Assembly (NCBI GenBank): GCA_029975475.1
Contig: JARKPB010000008.1
Coordinates: 868,001 to 932,000 of the forward strand
Length of the DNA: 64,000 nucleotides
DNA from: Anaerolineaceae bacterium
GTDB lineage: Bacteria; Chloroflexota; Anaerolineae; Anaerolineales; Anaerolineaceae
Direction: 5' to 3'
The notes beneath the pieces are model-generated. The model was not told the DNA's origin. It ran no database searches and saw only the letters and a list, made by a program, of their open reading frames with translations. How positions within the stretch are numbered: the stretch's first letter is position 1; each line of letters begins with the position of its first letter. Both the position numbers and the translations under genes were made by a program. This document shows positions 51,278 to 61,476 of this stretch, one piece after another.

Positions 51278-51306
51278 TTGACATTTTTTAAGGATTATGC
51301 TATGCT
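51278..51306 (+). promoter_or_regulatory. Promoter of the MBL-fold hydrolase gene
   Basis: TTGACA (51278-51283), 17-base spacer, TATGCT (51301-51306). The ATG is at 51342, with GGAAGGTGAG as ribosome-binding site. Confidence 0.75.
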
Positions 51307-51341
51307 ACCTTATTCATTGTCATCCCATCTGGAAGGTGAGC

Positions 51342-52193
51342 ATGCATCGCGAACGGGTATCCGAAAATGTCTACTGGTTCCAAAGTGAGGTCTATGCCCA
51401 GGTTACCGCCGGGGTGATCACCAGCCCTCAATGGGCGGTGATGATTGATACCCTGGCGCTGCCAGAAGAAACCCTGGAACTGCGCGACTTCATTGAAGAA
51501 AATTTAGGCGTCCCCGTTCGGTACATCATCAATACCCATTCTCATGCGGATCACTGCTGGGGCAATATCTTTTTCCCGGGCGCGACCGTCATCGCGCATG
51601 AGCTAAGCCGCCAGCAAATGCAAGAAAAAGGACCGGCATCCCTTGAAGCTGCCCGGCAGCAAAACCCGGTTTTTAAGCAGATCAAACTGGTTTACCCCCA
51701 CATCACCTTTTCGGATGGGATCTTCACCCTCCGGGTTGGCAAGAAAACTTTGAATCTGATGCCTTCTCCGGGCCATTCCAAAGACGGGATCTCCGTTCTG
51801 GTCGAAGAAGACCGCATTCTCTTCGCCGGCGATTCGTTTTTACCCCTGCCTTATTTTGTGGATGGGGATATTGATGAACTGGCTGCTTCGATTAAGAAGG
51901 TCGCGAAAATGGGGCTGGAAAACATCATCCAGGGGCACGGCGATATTATCCTGCGCGGTGAAATTGACGATGCGGTCAAAGATAATCTCGGTTACCTGAC
52001 CACGCTGCGCAAACAGGTGCGCGCAGCCAGTAAAAAACGCAATCCGCAGGAAGCCCTGAGCGCAATCGATATTGAATCATGCGGGAAAAGCCGGGTGCTG
52101 CTGGGCGGGATTGCAGAAGAGCTGCACCGCCGAAACATTCGTTTTTTGTATAAAAAAGTGCTGGAAGAGGGGGACAACCCGCCTTCTGATTAA
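51342..52193 (+). CDS. MBL-fold metallo-hydrolase
   Basis: A 283-aa metallo-beta-lactamase-fold enzyme. The dinuclear site ligands are THSHADHCWGN (HxHxDH), MPSPGHSKDG, FAGDSFLP and QGHGD. The C-terminal 70 residues (after 215) are helical and basic. The family includes glyoxalase II-like and lactonase-like enzymes; which applies is unknown. It has its own strong promoter. The following tgt operon begins 70 bases later and may be partly read from it. Confidence 0.87.
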   Translation: MHRERVSENVYWFQSEVYAQVTAGVITSPQWAVMIDTLALPEETLELRDFIEENLGVPVRYIINTHSHADHCWGNIFFPGATVIAHELSRQQMQEKGPASLEAARQQNPVFKQIKLVYPHITFSDGIFTLRVGKKTLNLMPSPGHSKDGISVLVEEDRILFAGDSFLPLPYFVDGDIDELAASIKKVAKMGLENIIQGHGDIILRGEIDDAVKDNLGYLTTLRKQVRAASKKRNPQEALSAIDIESCGKSRVLLGGIAEELHRRNIRFLYKKVLEEGDNPPSD

Positions 52194-52263: not shown

Positions 52264-53358
52264 ATGACCGAACCCGCAAGTTTACAAACCCCTTCTGGAG
52301 CGCTGCACTACCCGGTTTACCTGCCGGACGCCACGTTTGGCGTGGTTCGGGGTGTGGATGCGCGCGATCTGCAGGACTGCCGGGTTCGCGCAGTGGTGAT
52401 GAACACCTATCACTTGATGCAAAAACCCGGTGCTACCACCGTTCAGGCGCTGGGCGGGCTGCATCAGATGTCCGCTTTCCCCCTGCCGATTATTACGGAT
52501 TCAGGCGGGTTTCAGGCATACTCGCTGATCCGGCAATCTGCCCGCTTCGGCAAGATGACAGATAACGGTATCAGCTTTCGGCCGGAAGGCAGCCAGCGGA
52601 AATTTGACCTTACCCCGGAAAAATGTGTTCAGCTGCAATTCCGTTATGGTTCAGACATTCTGATCGCCCTGGATGACTGCACCCACAGCGATGATTCCCT
52701 CACCGAGCAAAAAATATCTGTGGAACGCACCATCCGCTGGGCAAAACGATGTAAAGCGGAATACAACCGTCTTTTAAGCCAACATCCCCGTCCCGTAAAA
52801 CCGCTGCTCTTCGGTGTTGTCCAGGGCGGCAGCCATCCCGAGCTGCGCAGACAATGCGCGGACGCGCTTCTGGAAATTGGCTTTGACGGTTTTGGCTTTG
52901 GCGGCTGGCCGCTCGATTCACAGGGAAACCTCTTAACTGAAATGATCGCCCTGGTAAGGGCATTGATACCGCCCCAGTACCCTTTGCACGCCCTCGGGAT
53001 TGGTCACCCCGTCAATGTCGCCCGCTGTTCAGCCCTGGGGTACCAGATTTTCGACAGCGCGATGCCAACCCGCGATGCCCGCCACGGGAGGCTTTACACG
53101 TTTCAAGGTCAACCCACCAGACAGGATTTATTTCAAAAAGACGGCTGGTTAAAATACGTCTACATTCAGGATGAGCTTCACACCAAAGCTGACCAGCCGA
53201 TCGAATCAGGCTGCGATTGCCCAACCTGCCAGCACTACTCGCGCGGATACCTGCATCATTTGCAGGATCTGGACGACCATTTATATTACCGGCTGGCGAC
53301 CATGCACAATCTGCGCTTCATGACGCGGTTAACCGAAAAACTGGGAGCAGGCGATTGA
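52264..53358 (+). CDS. tgt: tRNA-guanine transglycosylase homologue
   Basis: TGT swaps guanine 34 of certain tRNAs for a 7-deazaguanine (preQ1 or queuine). The 364-aa protein has TDSGGFQAYSL (catalytic-base region), FGVVQGG, the nucleophile Asp in FDSAMPTRDARHG and the zinc site CDCPTCQHYSRGYLHHL. It departs from the standard bacterial enzyme in places. LIALDDCTH stands where FDECTP is usual, GFGFGGWPLD replaces GGLSVGE, and ALGIGHPVN replaces MGVGxPxD. So it could be a divergent TGT with altered base preference. It is translationally coupled (TTGA) to the first Rmt homologue. Confidence 0.85.
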   Translation: MTEPASLQTPSGALHYPVYLPDATFGVVRGVDARDLQDCRVRAVVMNTYHLMQKPGATTVQALGGLHQMSAFPLPIITDSGGFQAYSLIRQSARFGKMTDNGISFRPEGSQRKFDLTPEKCVQLQFRYGSDILIALDDCTHSDDSLTEQKISVERTIRWAKRCKAEYNRLLSQHPRPVKPLLFGVVQGGSHPELRRQCADALLEIGFDGFGFGGWPLDSQGNLLTEMIALVRALIPPQYPLHALGIGHPVNVARCSALGYQIFDSAMPTRDARHGRLYTFQGQPTRQDLFQKDGWLKYVYIQDELHTKADQPIESGCDCPTCQHYSRGYLHHLQDLDDHLYYRLATMHNLRFMTRLTEKLGAGD

Positions 53359-54197
53359 ACATCACCGCAGATGAGTTTGACGCGATCAGGCAGCAGGTTC
53401 TGGCTGGCGAAAAATACGCCCGGCTTGATCCCGCCCTGGTCGAACGCATCATCCGAGAGGAATTATCAAAAAATCGCAGCGGGAGGGAGCTGGTCAAAGC
53501 CGTTCGGTCAAAACTGCATCAAACCGCAGCGGTGTACCGCCTTGGTCAGCTGGATGCGGAGAACCTTCTGCTCAGACTGGACGCGCTCCCGTCCGACCTC
53601 TACCAAGCACAAACCACCGCGTTTTGCCTCGACGCGATGAAACTTCACCAGTCCACCCTGGAGCGGCTGGAATTCATTGATGCGTTTTTTCAGACCACGC
53701 TTCAATCGATTCAACCTGTCCGTTCCATTCTTGATCTGGCCTGCGGTCTGAATCCGCTTGCGCTTCCCTGGATGCCGTCCGCACCGGATCTGGTTTACCA
53801 TGCCTGCGATATTTTTACCGACCAGATGGCCTTTATTGAGCGGTTTTTTCAGCATTTCAGGATCAGCGGTCAGACCTATCTCACGGATCTGACCGATTCC
53901 ATACCCCAGGTTTCTGCTGAAGTCACATTTCTGTTGAAAACCATCCCGTGCCTGGAGCAGCTCTCACGAAACATCGGTCAGCGCCTGATCGACTCCATCC
54001 CCTCGGCGCATATCCTGGTGAGCTATCCAGCCCGCAGCCTCGGCGGCCGCAATATTGGAATGGTAAAGCATTATGAACACCAGTTCCTGCAATTAATTGA
54101 TCCCCAGCGCTGGGAAATTGAGCGCTTTCTTTTTCCGAATGAACTGGTTTTTTTTATCCATCGGAAAAGGGAATCCGTTGAATGGCAAAGAAACTAA
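53355..54197 (+). CDS. 16S rRNA (guanine1405-N7)-methyltransferase family protein, copy 1 (ArmA/Rmt-like)
   Basis: A 280-aa SAM methyltransferase that matches the Rmt/ArmA/Sgm family along its length. An N-terminal helical domain has LAGEKYARLDPALVERII and KLHQTAAVY, then LHQSTLERL. Motif I is ILDLACGLNPLALPW, followed by YHACDI, LLKTIPCLEQ, and the signature LVSYPARSLGGRNIGMVKHY, closing with NELVFFI. Known members methylate N7 of G1405 in 16S rRNA and block 4,6-disubstituted aminoglycosides. The TTG start at 53355 overlaps the tgt stop and has GGGAG upstream. Activity is inferred from motifs only. Confidence 0.85.
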   Translation: MNITADEFDAIRQQVLAGEKYARLDPALVERIIREELSKNRSGRELVKAVRSKLHQTAAVYRLGQLDAENLLLRLDALPSDLYQAQTTAFCLDAMKLHQSTLERLEFIDAFFQTTLQSIQPVRSILDLACGLNPLALPWMPSAPDLVYHACDIFTDQMAFIERFFQHFRISGQTYLTDLTDSIPQVSAEVTFLLKTIPCLEQLSRNIGQRLIDSIPSAHILVSYPARSLGGRNIGMVKHYEHQFLQLIDPQRWEIERFLFPNELVFFIHRKRESVEWQRN

Positions 54198-54988
54198 TCG
54201 ATTCCCCGGAAAAACTTGCGGACGAGGTATTATCCTCTCCAAAATACCGGCGGATGAAGCTCCCTAGAGAAACCGTGATGAACATCATCCATCAGTTACA
54301 GGAAGATGGGTGGAAAGGCAGTGACCTGGACCGCCAGGTGCGGCTTAAACTTCACCACCTGACCGCGCCATATCTCGGAGATCTTCAAGAGGAAGTGGAT
54401 TATTCCGGTTTTGGGAAAAACGAGCCGCTGGCAGCCTATCAACCGCTTTGCAGCGCTCTCCTGGCGCAGCACACCTCTACCCGGGAAAGGCTGCAGTTGC
54501 TGGAAACATTTTATGCCCGCCTGTTTGAAATCACCGGCAAGCCGGGTAAGATCCTCGATCTCGCCTGCGGCCTCAATCCCTTCAGCCTGCCCTGGATGCC
54601 AGGCGCTGAAACGATTGAATATCACGCTTATGATATTATTGAGCCGCGCCTGACGCAAATCGAACGGTTTTTCACGCACACCGGCCTGAAAGGAACCGTT
54701 CACCTTCAGGATATCTTGCTGCAAGCGCCGGGAGAATCTGCGGACGCCGTCTTTTTATTCAAAGAAATCCACCGCATGGAAGACCGCAAAAAAGGGTCCG
54801 TGCGCGGATTACTCGAAGCGCTGCAGGCGCCCTGGCTGCTGGTTTCATTGCCTACGCGAAATTTAACCGGTTCAAGAAATCTGCTCGACCTCCACCGTCG
54901 GCTCATCGCGTCCATTCTTTCCGGGCTTTCCTGGCCAGTGACCGAAGTCCTCTTCTCGAATGAAGTTGTCTTTGTTATCCGTAAATGA
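54182..54988 (+). CDS. Rmt-family methyltransferase paralogue, copy 2 (diverged)
   Basis: A 268-aa tandem paralogue of the preceding gene. The shared framework is clear: LSSPKYRRMKLPRETVMNII, KLHHLTAPYL, HTSTRERLQLLETFY, ILDLACGLNPFSLPWMPGAE, YHAYDI and the terminal NEVVFVI. The catalytic/target-side motifs differ: FKEIHRMED instead of K-LP-LE, and SLPTRNLTGSRNLLDLH where the family has SFPTRSLGGRxxGMxxxY. So it probably binds SAM but may have a different target, or serve as a partner. It overlaps copy 1 by 16 bases and the RsmF-like gene by 4. Confidence 0.82.
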   Translation: MAKKLIDSPEKLADEVLSSPKYRRMKLPRETVMNIIHQLQEDGWKGSDLDRQVRLKLHHLTAPYLGDLQEEVDYSGFGKNEPLAAYQPLCSALLAQHTSTRERLQLLETFYARLFEITGKPGKILDLACGLNPFSLPWMPGAETIEYHAYDIIEPRLTQIERFFTHTGLKGTVHLQDILLQAPGESADAVFLFKEIHRMEDRKKGSVRGLLEALQAPWLLVSLPTRNLTGSRNLLDLHRRLIASILSGLSWPVTEVLFSNEVVFVIRK

Positions 54989-56466
54989 GCAAACGCAAGC
55001 GCTTACCCGTTCCCACCTCCCCGGCTGAACTGCAAGAGCAGATGCTCGCCAGCCTGCTGCCGTATCTACCCGCAGATAAAGTCGAGCTCTTGACCGCGGA
55101 ACTCAACCGCGACCTTCCCCCGGCGGTGCGCATCAACACTCTGAAGAACGACCTCGCTGCCTATACGATTGCCTTGGAAAATCGTTATTCCTGGAAACTG
55201 GTTCCAACCGCGTTCTCCGCTCAGGGTTTCTGGGTGCATAACGCCGCGAACCCGGTCAGCATGACTCTCGAACACCGCATGGGCGAATATTACATCCAGG
55301 ACGCGGCTTCGATGGTACCGCCAGAGCTGTTTGATTTTTCCGGGACAGAAGAACCCCTTCTTCTTGACATGGCAGCCTCTCCGGGCGGTAAAACCACCCA
55401 TCTGGCTGAGCGGATTGGCGACCGCGGATTTATTCTCGCAAACGATTCGAGCCGGGAACGGTTAAACGCCTTAAAGATTGTGCTTCAAAACTGCGGGGTA
55501 ATCAGCGCCGGCGTCACGAACTTTCACGGAGAATATTTTGGCGCATGGTTTCCAGAAACCTTCGACGCGGTCTTGCTGGACGCCCCCTGCAGTATGCAAA
55601 ATTTACGCGCCAGTGAAAATCACCCGCTGCGCCCAATATCACCGCGCGAACAAAACGCGCTCGCCAACCGGCAGATCCGCCTGCTCGAATCAGGACTCAG
55701 GGCGCTCAAAACCGGCGGACAGCTGGTCTATTCCACCTGCACCCTCTCCCCCAGTGAAGATGAGCTGGTGATTGACGCAATATTAAGTGCTTATCCAGAC
55801 GCGGTTAAAGTTGTGGATTGTTCTCAGCGGTTCAACGCGCCGGGCCTCGACCAGATCGGCGGCCGGCAAATCAATCCGCAGCTGCGCCATTCTTTGCGGC
55901 TCTGGCCGCACCGCTACCACACCGCCGGCTTTTTTTCCGCCCTGCTTGTAAAGACCCGCCCCATCCTGTCAGACACCAGAATCCCGCCCTCCAGGGATAT
56001 TCAAAAAGCTGGCTTTGTCACGCTCGGTGCTGAGGAATGCAGCCGCGTCTGGCAGGCGCTAAAGAAGCAGTATGACCTTGATCGGGATCAAATCCTTTCT
56101 GACCGCCGCCTGAACTTGATCGGTTTTGGCAGCCGGGTCATCCTGGTTCCACAAAGGTATTTTGAAGTCTTCATGCAGCTGCCGGTTACCTATCTGGGGC
56201 TGGAAATTGGGCAGTGGGCAGACGGCAGATTGCATATCAAACACGAGTTCGCCTCGCGTTTTCACCGCCAGTTAAGAAAATCTGGATTGCAGCTGAACGA
56301 TGAGGACAGTCAACGCTGGTTGTCCGGCCAGGATATTGAGAGCGGCCTCAGTTTGCCCGCCTGGTCGCTGCCGGTGTTCGACCCGCTCGGACGCTACCTG
56401 GGTATCGCCCGCTCGCAGGATGGAAAGGCGCGCAACATCTTGCCCGCACGAATCAAGATGCGCTAA
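54985..56466 (+). CDS. RsmF/NOP2-family 16S rRNA m5C methyltransferase
   Basis: A 493-aa RNA cytosine-C5 methyltransferase. An N-terminal PUA-less domain (about 1-100), then motif I LDMAASPGGKTTHLAERI, DAPCSMQNLRA with the first Cys, YSTCTLSPSEDE with the catalytic Cys, and a C-terminal part (about 310-490) like the RsmF PUA-type extension. RsmF in E. coli makes m5C1407; in Thermus it also acts at 1400 and 1404. The exact site here is unknown. The start overlaps the second Rmt gene (ATGA). The stop overlaps the convergent rsmE by 14 bases. Confidence 0.9.
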   Translation: MSKRKRLPVPTSPAELQEQMLASLLPYLPADKVELLTAELNRDLPPAVRINTLKNDLAAYTIALENRYSWKLVPTAFSAQGFWVHNAANPVSMTLEHRMGEYYIQDAASMVPPELFDFSGTEEPLLLDMAASPGGKTTHLAERIGDRGFILANDSSRERLNALKIVLQNCGVISAGVTNFHGEYFGAWFPETFDAVLLDAPCSMQNLRASENHPLRPISPREQNALANRQIRLLESGLRALKTGGQLVYSTCTLSPSEDELVIDAILSAYPDAVKVVDCSQRFNAPGLDQIGGRQINPQLRHSLRLWPHRYHTAGFFSALLVKTRPILSDTRIPPSRDIQKAGFVTLGAEECSRVWQALKKQYDLDRDQILSDRRLNLIGFGSRVILVPQRYFEVFMQLPVTYLGLEIGQWADGRLHIKHEFASRFHRQLRKSGLQLNDEDSQRWLSGQDIESGLSLPAWSLPVFDPLGRYLGIARSQDGKARNILPARIKMR

Positions 56467-57199
56467 TCCCCAGCTCACCTGCCGCAGTCAGGAGCAAAGT
56501 GCTCCCGGCGATGGCCGCGGTTTCCATTCTCAGGATGCGCGGGCCCAGACGAAGCGCGGCCGCTCCCGATTCGATCGCAAAGGATGCCTCTTCAGGGCTA
56601 AAACCGCCTTCCGGTCCAACGACCAGCGCGATGTTCTTATCCTGGATTCGCCTTCCCGCCATGGGGGATAAAGCAGTTTTCCCGCTGCGCTCGAGCGCGA
56701 TGTAGACCGGGCCTAGTTGAACCAGGCTTTGCATACATTCCTTAAACGGAAGCGGGGATTGCAAAACGGGCAGCCTGCCGCGCTCGCACTGCTCCGCGGC
56801 TTCACGGATAATTCGCTCCCAGCGCTCCTGTTTGCCTCGCTCCTGAGATCTGCCCTGAATCAACGAATGGGAAGAGAAAAACGGGTAAAACGCGCTGACG
56901 CCCAATTCCGTTCCCTTTTGGAGGATCCACTCAAATTTTTCACGCGCTGTCAGAGAGACCGCCAGAGACAACCGCACCTGAGGTTCAGCCTGATTCTGGC
57001 TGGTTTCAACAATTTCCCCGCGGATTTCTTTTCCACTAATTTCCAGGCGGGTCAGGAACTGCCGGCCGCTTCCATCCAGGGTACAGACGAGCGCACCGTC
57101 CAGCAGCCGCAGGACATGCAGAATTTGATGGCTGATTTCCCTGGGAAACTGGACCATATTCCCGGAAAACGACTCGGGGGGAAGAAAAAAATGGTGCAT
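56453..57199 (-). CDS. rsmE: 16S rRNA (uracil1498-N3)-methyltransferase
   Basis: A SPOUT-class enzyme (248 aa) methylating U1498 at the decoding site. It has the N-terminal PUA-like part beginning HHFFLPPE, SLTAREKFEWILQKGTELGV, QCERGRLPVL, LVVGPEGGFSPEE (motif for SAM knot) and LRLGPRILRMETAAIA. The start at 57199 was chosen from the conserved MHHFF and a GAAAGAG site. It converges on the RsmF-like gene. Length and motifs are standard. Confidence 0.94.
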   Translation of the reverse strand: MHHFFLPPESFSGNMVQFPREISHQILHVLRLLDGALVCTLDGSGRQFLTRLEISGKEIRGEIVETSQNQAEPQVRLSLAVSLTAREKFEWILQKGTELGVSAFYPFFSSHSLIQGRSQERGKQERWERIIREAAEQCERGRLPVLQSPLPFKECMQSLVQLGPVYIALERSGKTALSPMAGRRIQDKNIALVVGPEGGFSPEEASFAIESGAAALRLGPRILRMETAAIAGSTLLLTAAGELGISAS

Positions 57200-57270
57200 G
57201 CAGATCTCTTTCGGTGTGATAGAATCCAAAACCACTCTCATAATTATACTTTTGCTACTGGCAGGTCGAT

Positions 57271-57996
57271 TTGTCTCTCTCCCAAACTCACCAGAAAAGC
57301 TACCGCTACTTCGATCTGGTTGTCGCCGTCTTCGTTACCGTTTTAATCACCAGCAATATCGCCTCATCGGCGAAAATTATCGATTGGGGCGTCAGCCTCT
57401 TCGGGCTGCGTCTTTCCTTTGACGCAGGGACGTTATTATTCCCGATTTCTTACATCTTCGGAGATGTTTTAACCGAAGTCTACGGCTATCAAAAAGCCAG
57501 GCGCGTGATCTGGACCGGTTTTGCCGCGCTGGCGCTTTCCGCGCTGGTGTTCTGGGCAGTGCGCTGGCTGCCCGGAGAAGCCACCTGGCAGGAATATGCC
57601 GGCCAGGCAGCTTACGATGCGATTCTGGGCGGGATGTCGACCGGGGGGATTGTTCTGGCCAGTCTGCTGGCCTACTGGGCGGGAAGTTTCTCGAACGCGT
57701 ATATTATGTCTCGATTGAAGGTTATCACTGGCGGAAAATTTCTTTGGGTGCGCACCATCGGCAGCACCCTGATTGGTGAAGGGGTTGACACCATGACCTT
57801 TATCGCCGCCGCCAGTCTGGCCGGAGTATTTCCCTGGGAATTGTTCTTCAATCTAACCGTGACCAATTATATTTTTAAGGTGGGAATCGAAGTGATCATG
57901 ACACCGGTCACCTACCAGGTTGTGCGTTGGTTAAAAAGCGCTGAAGGTGAAGATGTCTTTGACCGGGGGATCAACTTTTCACCGTTTAGCCGATAA
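57271..57996 (+). CDS. yhhQ: Queuosine precursor transporter (YhhQ/DUF165 family)
   Basis: A 241-aa membrane protein with six predicted helices of the YhhQ (QPTR) family, which imports preQ0/preQ1. Family marks are the early [43 protein letters not shown], the inner region with [20 protein letters not shown], and [20 protein letters not shown]. With tgt and queA in the same window this points to queuosine made from salvaged precursor. TTG is the only available start in frame. It overlaps rsmI by 18 bases at the 3' end. Confidence 0.9.
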
Positions 57997-58695
57997 ATCA
58001 TTGGCAGCTTTAGACGGCCGGCTGTTTCTGCCTTCCGGAGCAGATATCACCACCACAAACTCTCCGCGCAGCTCTTCCGCATCAATTGTCTGAATGATTT
58101 CAGACAATGAACCGCGCCAGATTTTTTCGTAAAATTTGGTCAGGTCGTTGGCGACAGCCGCATACCTATCCCCAAACACGTCCAGACAATCCTTGAGGAA
58201 CGCCTTGAGACGGTAGGGGCTCTCATAATAAATCAAGGTATAAATGGAATCCGCATCCGCAGCCAAAAAATTTTTGCGCTGGGCAGGTTTGTGCGGGGGA
58301 AAACCCCGGAAGGTAAAGGAATGCAGCGCTAAACCAGAAAGCACCAGCGCCGGAACAAACGCCGTCGCCCCAGGCAAAGCCGTAACCTGAATACCCGCCT
58401 GTATGGCAGCCCGTACGAGCAAAAACCCCGGGTCAGAAATCCCCGGTGTTCCAGCATCGGTTACCAAAGCGATTTCTTTGCCTTCCGACAACAATCTGAG
58501 AATTCCGGGTAAATTTTTTGTTTCGTTGTATTCGTGAAAAGAGATTTGCGGTTTCTTAATCTCAAAATGCTTCAGTAAAAAGCCGGTTTTGCGCGTATCT
58601 TCACTGACAACATAATCGACCCGCTTGAGAGTTTCCAGAGCGCGCAAAGTGATATCGCCCAGATTTCCGATGGGGGTTGAAACAAGATACAGCAT
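57979..58695 (-). CDS. rsmI: 16S rRNA (cytidine1402-2'-O)-methyltransferase
   Basis: A 238-aa tetrapyrrole-methylase-fold enzyme that adds the 2'-O-methyl of m4Cm1402. It shows [74 protein letters not shown] and [26 protein letters not shown] precedes the ATG at 58695. It is the second decoding-site methylase on this strand near the Rmt cluster. Confidence 0.95.
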
Positions 58696-58773
58696 ACCCT
58701 TCCTCCCCCTTGAGTATATCACGCTGAGAGGAAGACCCTGTACGCGTGCACTTCCACTTCCCTGGCGGGCGGG

Positions 58774-60615: not shown

Positions 60616-61476
60616 TTAATCGCTTTCATTCGTTCCTGGTTTCCAGCCGTACCACTCAAGACCCTCAATGCCCGAAAACCGCTTTTCCATCGTGATCAGG
60701 GCTTCGGGATTTTGGTCCACCAGGATAAAACCGCGGCCTAATTCCAGGCAGACCGCGCCAGTAGTTCCGCTGCCGGCAAAAAAATCCAGCACCAACCCGC
60801 CCGGGTTTGAGCTGGCCGCCACGATTCGGCGGATAATCCCCAGCGGTTTTTGGGTGGGATAGCCGGTCTTTTCCTTACTGTTGGTCGGGACAATCGTATG
60901 CCACCAGGTATCGGTGGGCAGCTTGCCGCGGGCGGCCTTTTCCGGTCCCACCAGGCCCGGCGACATGTAAGGAATGCGTTCGATCGACTCAAGGTGAAAG
61001 ATGTAGTTCTTTGGATCTTTCGCGTACCAGAGGATATTATCATGTTTCGGCGGCCATTTTTTTCGCGTCCTGCCGCCAAAATCATAAGCCCAGATAATTT
61101 CATTCAAAAAAGAATCCCTGCCGAAAATTAAATCCAGCAGGATTTTGCAATAATGAACCTCGCGATAATCAATATGAAAATAGAGCGAACCGTTCGGTTG
61201 TAATACCCGGTAGGCTTCCCGCAGGCGGGGTTCAAGAAATTGGAGGTAATCGTCAAACAGGTCCGCGTAGCCAAGAGCCCCCAGTCGAACAGTTTGGTAA
61301 CGCCGGCCCTGAAAACCTGTGCGGTCGCCGTCAGCATCGAGGCGTGTTTTTAACTGAATCCGTTTTTGTATTTTTCCGGTATTGAAGGGCGGATCAATAT
61401 AGATCAACTCCACACATTCATCCGGAAGACTGCGGAGAACATCCAAATTATCCGCGCGGTATATTTGACGCAGCAT
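60616..61476 (-). CDS. Orphan site-specific DNA methyltransferase (beta-class N4/N6)
   Basis: A 286-aa DNA methylase. The order is catalytic motif IV IYIDPPFNTGK (near residue 26), then a target-recognition stretch, then GYPTQKPLGIIRRIV and motif I LVLDFFAGSGTTGAVCLELGR near the C-terminus, which defines the beta class (adenine-N6 or cytosine-N4). No endonuclease gene is adjacent, so it is solitary. It could regulate gene expression or replication, or be a remnant of a restriction system. Recognition sequence unknown. Confidence 0.88.
   Translation of the reverse strand: MLRQIYRADNLDVLRSLPDECVELIYIDPPFNTGKIQKRIQLKTRLDADGDRTGFQGRRYQTVRLGALGYADLFDDYLQFLEPRLREAYRVLQPNGSLYFHIDYREVHYCKILLDLIFGRDSFLNEIIWAYDFGGRTRKKWPPKHDNILWYAKDPKNYIFHLESIERIPYMSPGLVGPEKAARGKLPTDTWWHTIVPTNSKEKTGYPTQKPLGIIRRIVAASSNPGGLVLDFFAGSGTTGAVCLELGRGFILVDQNPEALITMEKRFSGIEGLEWYGWKPGTNESD

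Follow-up and report, generated by a model that had tools for sequence, protein, structure and literature searches.

What the ArmA/Rmt family of 16S rRNA methyltransferases does natively outside antibiotic producers, and where it originated, is considered here for a window of 64,000 nucleotides (i.e. the whole stretch of DNA analysed here) from an Anaerolineaceae genome, in which the only two FmrO genes of that genome, copy A and copy B, lie in tandem (Table 1). The genes for a TGT-family enzyme (Tgt2), A, B and the RsmF-like methyltransferase overlap head to tail by 4, 16 and 4 bp, and the metallo-hydrolase gene in front of them may share an operon with tgt2; a promoter-like site (consensus match only) lies 5' of that gene at 51278-51306. 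No mobile element was seen in the translated neighbourhood of the A/B locus, and PADLOC gave only weak or generic matches. Elsewhere in the window, at 60616-61476, a minus-strand ORF resembles a site-specific DNA methyltransferase (DPPFNTG motif).

Table 1. Features of the Tgt2/Rmt locus in the window, and plasmid loci carrying a Tgt2-type gene near an rmt gene
Feature	Positions or locus	Strand	Remarks
Metallo-beta-lactamase-fold hydrolase	51297-52193		directly 5' of tgt2
Tgt2, paralogous TGT-family enzyme	52264..53358	+	4-bp overlap with copy A
Copy A, ArmA/Rmt/FmrO-type 16S rRNA methyltransferase carrying all family motifs; predicted to make m7G1405	53355..54197	+	280 aa; TTG start overlapping the upstream TGA
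Copy B, FmrO paralogue that has diverged and belongs to an old clade	54182..54988	+	268 aa
RsmF-like m5C methyltransferase (NOL1/NOP2/sun)	54985..56466	+	PF01189 132.8 bits; 4-bp overlap with copy B
RsmE family (16S m3U1498) methyltransferase	56453..57241	-	TIGR00046 143.8 bits (cut-off 41)
Queuosine precursor transporter (Vut_1/QueT-YhhQ type)	57271..57996	+	TIGR00697 110 bits (cut-off 50.95)
RsmI (16S Cm1402 2'-O-methyltransferase)	57979..58722	-	TIGR00096 231.4 bits (cut-off 167.9)
Plasmid Tgt2-type gene near rmtG	L157 (NZ_CP021956)
Plasmid Tgt2-type gene near rmtD1	L160
Plasmid Tgt2-type gene near rmtE2	L070/L161
Plasmid Tgt2-type gene near rmtB2	L159

Copy A matches the Pfam family FmrO (PF07091) with 149.8 bits (cut-off 27), and its best NCBIfam match is Rmt (NF000466) with 204.8 bits, which is below the equivalog cut-off of 250 bits. 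A preliminary description of the locus had credited this copy with the complete motif set of the m7G1405 methyltransferases, and indeed DLACGLNPLAL, KTIPCLE and SYPARSLGGRNIGM are all present; alignment with RmtB/C/E/F, ArmA and Sgm agrees, as copy A carries each of HxSTxERL, DLACGLNP, K-x-x-P-x-LE and S-x-P-x-x-SLGGRxxGM. Its best sequence match in the PDB is Sgm (E 2.9e-38), and the model of the protein alone (pLDDT 93.6), with an N-terminal helical domain and a Rossmann methyltransferase fold, superimposes on Sgm with a TM-score of 0.92 (rmsd 2.3 Å) and on RmtB with 0.88. Copy A thus shares family, fold and motif set with both the producer enzymes (Sgm/FmrO) and the acquired ones (ArmA, RmtA-H), at an identity to the aligned acquired enzymes of only 24-29%. 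Among A-type proteins in general, a strict pattern for the GM motif matches 139 of 163, some of the misses being variant loops such as GQREKGM. One Anaerolineaceae genome (L237, G017:C1:447953-448714) holds a single, very long-branched A-type gene that lacks the standard GM motif, adjoins rsmF and is not accompanied by Tgt2.

The A site in the 16S rRNA of the genome is of the usual kind (CGCCCGTCAC ... GAAGTCGTAAC), with G1405, C1407 and A1408, so that G1405 is available to copy A. These data support copy A as an intact-looking ArmA/Rmt-type enzyme, which most likely makes m7G1405 as a native modification. As a native G1405 N7-methyltransferase of the ArmA/Rmt/Sgm type it would bind the 30S subunit and use SAM to form m7G1405, with resistance to 4,6-disubstituted aminoglycosides as a by-product.

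Copy B is 33% identical to copy A over 268 columns and belongs to the same family (Pfam FmrO 114.3 bits, cut-off 27; best NCBIfam match Rmt NF000466 at 152 bits, again below the 250-bit equivalog cut-off; best PDB sequence match Sgm, E 1e-20), so that the two copies do not fall into unrelated methyltransferase families. Chance is far from sufficient to explain such a pair of family members. The fold is shared as well: modelled alone (pLDDT 94.2), B gives a TM-score of 0.83 with RmtB and 0.77 with Sgm. The earlier view that this copy keeps the fold and the SAM motif and replaces the K-LP-LE and GGRxxGM motifs is borne out, since FKEIHRME and LPTRNLTGSRNLL stand where copy A has KTIPCLE and SYPARSLGGRNIGM, and neither the GGRxxGM target loop nor K-x-x-P-C/L-LE can be recognised. 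This is the rule for B-type proteins, of which none out of 100 matches the strict GM pattern; the glycine of the motif is absent in 78 of 78 aligned sequences, and the SAM-site residues are kept. What sets B apart from Sgm/FmrO, ArmA and RmtA-H, next to the lost loop, is a conserved set of its own (KE.HR..E.R). All 78 aligned B sequences have K194, E195, R198 and R156, the last three being specific to B, with T/A/S, C and M/L/Q at the corresponding places in A, where K194 is invariant too (the roles of residues in A and B are judged from the alignment and general knowledge).

Because of the absent GM motif and the replacement of T and C by E195 and R198, copy B is not filed as a G1405 enzyme. 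The conserved SAM site, the invariant residues and a dN/dS of ~0.09-0.23 in five close pairs (i.e. purifying selection) indicate that B has been retained as a protein with a specialised role, for which an enzyme is the simplest reading. Read from its sequence, copy B would be an old SAM-dependent paralogue in which the residues of the G1405 loop have been swapped for others, and which probably modifies another nucleotide of helix 44 (the reading preferred here) or assists A.

The preliminary description had also proposed a tandem duplication followed by divergence, which the trees contradict. In a 212-row tree all A copies form one clade and all B copies another (SH-aLRT 99), and in a more careful tree of 55 rows the B clade is supported at 100/100, its nearest relatives being single-copy genes of other Chloroflexota that have the GM loop (95/88). 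A topology constrained to join B to the A copies of the Anaerolineaceae is rejected (AU p = 0.0028). The separate clades and this rejection rule out a recent, local duplicate and mean that A and B were already distinct before the Anaerolineaceae arose; the two genes may have become neighbours later than their split. The deep branches that place A, B, Sgm (a row made of the residues in the PDB sequence match) and the acquired enzymes have a support of only 27/25 and include the long branches of ArmA and RmtC, and no donor lineage is therefore claimed.

FmrO genes occur in 31 of the 37 Anaerolineaceae genomes searched (that of the window included), almost always as two copies. Two copies are also present in two genomes from a single further family of the order, and the remainder of the sampled order yielded none. 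Across the class Anaerolineae the family was found in 75 of 298 genomes, mostly in single copy, and in a sample of 301 Chloroflexota genomes none outside this class had two full-length copies. Most Anaerolineaceae have B as a fixed gene, as do several Anaerolineae outside that family, and the gene order Tgt2-A-B-RsmF recurs among the Anaerolineaceae (some MAGs in the survey are fragmented). On viral contigs no relative was confirmed. The genes had been described as resident and chromosomal, and this family-wide presence agrees with it: compared with Sgm/FmrO, ArmA and RmtA-H, A and B are chromosomal, spread over a whole family, found outside producers and free of a mobile context. In the searches made here, two nearly complete Anaerolineaceae genomes (G020 and G008) lack FmrO, RsmE and the RsmF-like gene, and are natural comparison strains.

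The preliminary description passed over the partner gene tgt2 and the rRNA-modification genes around the pair. The upstream gene is not the housekeeping tgt, which is excluded by a separate canonical Tgt in the genome (526 bits at G000:C4:5494-6552, compared with 311 bits for Tgt2 of the window) and by the fact that Tgt2 forms one clade apart from canonical Tgt (100% support). Against TIGR00430 (tRNA G34) it reaches 300.2 bits, just under the equivalog cut-off of 306.75. Tgt2 is a genuine member of the TGT superfamily by its catalytic Asp residues, Gln203 and Zn-binding Cys3His, and from the canonical bacterial enzyme (queuosine, tRNA G34) it keeps D102/D156/Q203/D280, the Zn ligands and R286/R289 (Z. 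mobilis numbering), the last two of which contact the tRNA target in Z. mobilis Tgt. The base pocket, in contrast, has changed: instead of GGL[AS]VGE it reads GG-WPLD, such that Leu231-Ala/Ser232-Val233-Gly234-Glu235 becomes Trp-Pro-Leu-Asp-x in nearly all of 102 Tgt2 sequences (W, P, L and D each in at least 100 of them).

In the genomes sampled, Tgt2 is found exclusively where Rmt is. Within the Anaerolineae (n=298) it occurs in 48 of 75 Rmt-positive and 0 of 223 Rmt-negative genomes, and within the Chloroflexota (n=301) in 53 of 58 and 0 of 243, respectively, so that all Tgt2-bearing genomes of the class sample (48/48) and of the phylum sample (53/53) also have Rmt. The two samples overlap (their union holds 93 genomes with both) and the genomes are related, because of which the tiny Fisher p-values overstate the link. 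The dependence runs in one direction: Rmt without Tgt2 occurs in 27 genomes of the class sample and 5 of the phylum sample, and Rmt therefore does not need Tgt2. Nor is the link only a matter of shared transcription, since some genomes (e.g. G525) have the two genes on separate contigs, each without a partner in its vicinity, and other genomes have them in the reverse order. Tgt2 would be a base-exchange enzyme with a remodelled base pocket; with R286 and R289 kept, its substrate may be tRNA, the base being an unusual one, or, less likely, rRNA.

As for the surrounding genes, homologues of RsmI lie near Tgt2/Rmt in 64 loci (only Tgt2/Rmt loci being counted), 21 of which are beyond the set of named loci; they are mostly overlapping or adjacent on the same strand, also in several other families, and example identities were checked. 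Where B is not next to A, family f49 being an example, the genes after it are rsmE and often rsmI. One further locus (L182, G289:C3) consists of seven co-directional genes, which are in this order the queuosine-precursor transporter gene, rsmI, tgt2, A, B, the rsmF-like gene and rsmE. An initial impression from eight genomes that RsmE is tied to Rmt was dropped after the class-wide count: RsmE is present in all 19 genomes with B (close by in 11), and also in 109 of 223 Rmt-negative genomes, so that its co-occurrence is a weak argument. The sites of RsmF (C1407), RsmI/RsmH (C1402) and RsmE (U1498) surround G1405, and RsmF or RsmI is reported to be disturbed by foreign Rmt enzymes (PMC12406665). 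It is because of these neighbouring targets, and of this disturbance, that a housekeeping role at the decoding centre is preferred here. We consider it likely that A/B and Tgt2 make up a resident, vertically kept locus for the housekeeping modification of helix 44 (the decoding centre) in Anaerolineaceae and other Chloroflexota.

The same Tgt subfamily accompanies acquired resistance genes. A tgt neighbour of rmtG and rmtD was already known (PMC9311965, PMC8446631, PMC3904158), and the Tgt2 genes flanking plasmid rmtB2, rmtD, rmtE and rmtG fall inside the Tgt2 clade. The best plasmid matches of Tgt2 (45-47% identity) lie beside rmt genes, compared with at most ~36% for canonical Tgt; the arrangements are tgt2-rmtG, tgt2-rmtD1, a truncated tgt2-rmtE2 and tgt2-phosphoesterase-rmtB2. 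The pocket signature is complete in the rmtB2 and rmtD loci and has small changes in the rmtG and rmtE loci. On the rmtG plasmid the order is rsmH-tgt2-rmtG-rsmI', with only the beginning of rsmI left. The rsmH-tgt-rmtG-rsmI plasmid operon and rmtD-tgt (PMC9311965, PMC8446631) thus share with the Chloroflexota a tgt of the Tgt2 subfamily next to rmt, whereas these plasmid contexts are mobile fragments and the Tgt2-Rmt pair of Chloroflexota is a resident chromosomal unit. The pieces that follow rmtE2, rmtG and rmtD on the plasmids were considered as remnants of a second Rmt, which was rejected: they are, respectively, a fragment resembling a lipoprotein, the beginning of rsmI and an ORF without assignment. 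The fragment behind rmtE2 (L070:5810-6127, 105 aa) has no family match and could derive from the chromosome of the donor. In the papers searched, no link of Rmt to Chloroflexota and no description of this Tgt as a distinct subfamily was found; by sequence comparison, the rmt-adjacent Tgt does constitute such a subfamily, and the pair is carried as resident genes across the Chloroflexota. Given the Rmt identity of only 24-29%, the Anaerolineaceae are not claimed as donors of the plasmid genes.

Two other readings deserve to be weighed at some length. A and B could form an obligate heteromer, in which B, having lost its target loop, helps A to bind or modify the 30S subunit at G1405. That 18 of the 19 genomes of the class sample carrying B also have A (only the fragmented MAG G271, in 500 contigs, does not) would fit, as would the 16-bp gene overlap in the window and the loss of GGRxxGM in every B sequence. 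Such a heteromer is nevertheless unlikely, since A alone is the usual state in Anaerolineae outside the Anaerolineaceae and is also seen in 21 of the 80 named loci, a number of which lie on cut contigs, the SAM-site motifs of B are kept under purifying selection, and the position of B apart from A, beside rsmE-rsmI in family f49, leans towards an h44 target of its own. The Rmt family is not known to include a heteromer.

The vertical conservation across Anaerolineaceae with a fixed gene order, the dependence of Tgt2 on Rmt, which runs one way and holds also where the two are unlinked, the repeated RsmI linkage in several families and the absence of an antibiotic pathway from the genes read in the neighbourhood make it improbable, too, that the pair simply confers intrinsic resistance to environmental or self-made aminoglycosides, with Tgt2 and the rRNA enzymes as chance neighbours, even though resistance and aminoglycoside producers are the settings in which the family is best known, and m7G1405 would confer resistance whatever its native role. 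Very little probability is given to the more far-reaching idea that Tgt2 is itself a ribosome enzyme, which swaps a guanine of the 16S decoding centre for a base obtained via the queuosine-precursor transporter, that A and B methylate guanines there, and that the acquired ArmA/Rmt enzymes are detached parts of this system. Finally, the lost GM loop and lower family score of B could point to a decaying or regulatory pseudo-enzyme, which is most improbable for an old clade that has intact SAM motifs and its own invariant residues (78/78) and is kept under purifying selection in most Anaerolineaceae.

With a resident helix 44 modification locus as the preferred reading, the ArmA/Rmt family appears as a resident gene of a large environmental phylum, tied one-way to the Tgt subfamily that flanks rmtB2, rmtD, rmtE and rmtG. 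Copy B, as a family-wide natural variant with the same fold and an altered target loop, is useful for learning how these enzymes choose their target. As a resident gene tied to Tgt2, Rmt makes both its native role and a search for donors directly testable in cultured Anaerolineaceae, and the link to Tgt2 points to the natural job that these genes would have had before becoming resistance genes.
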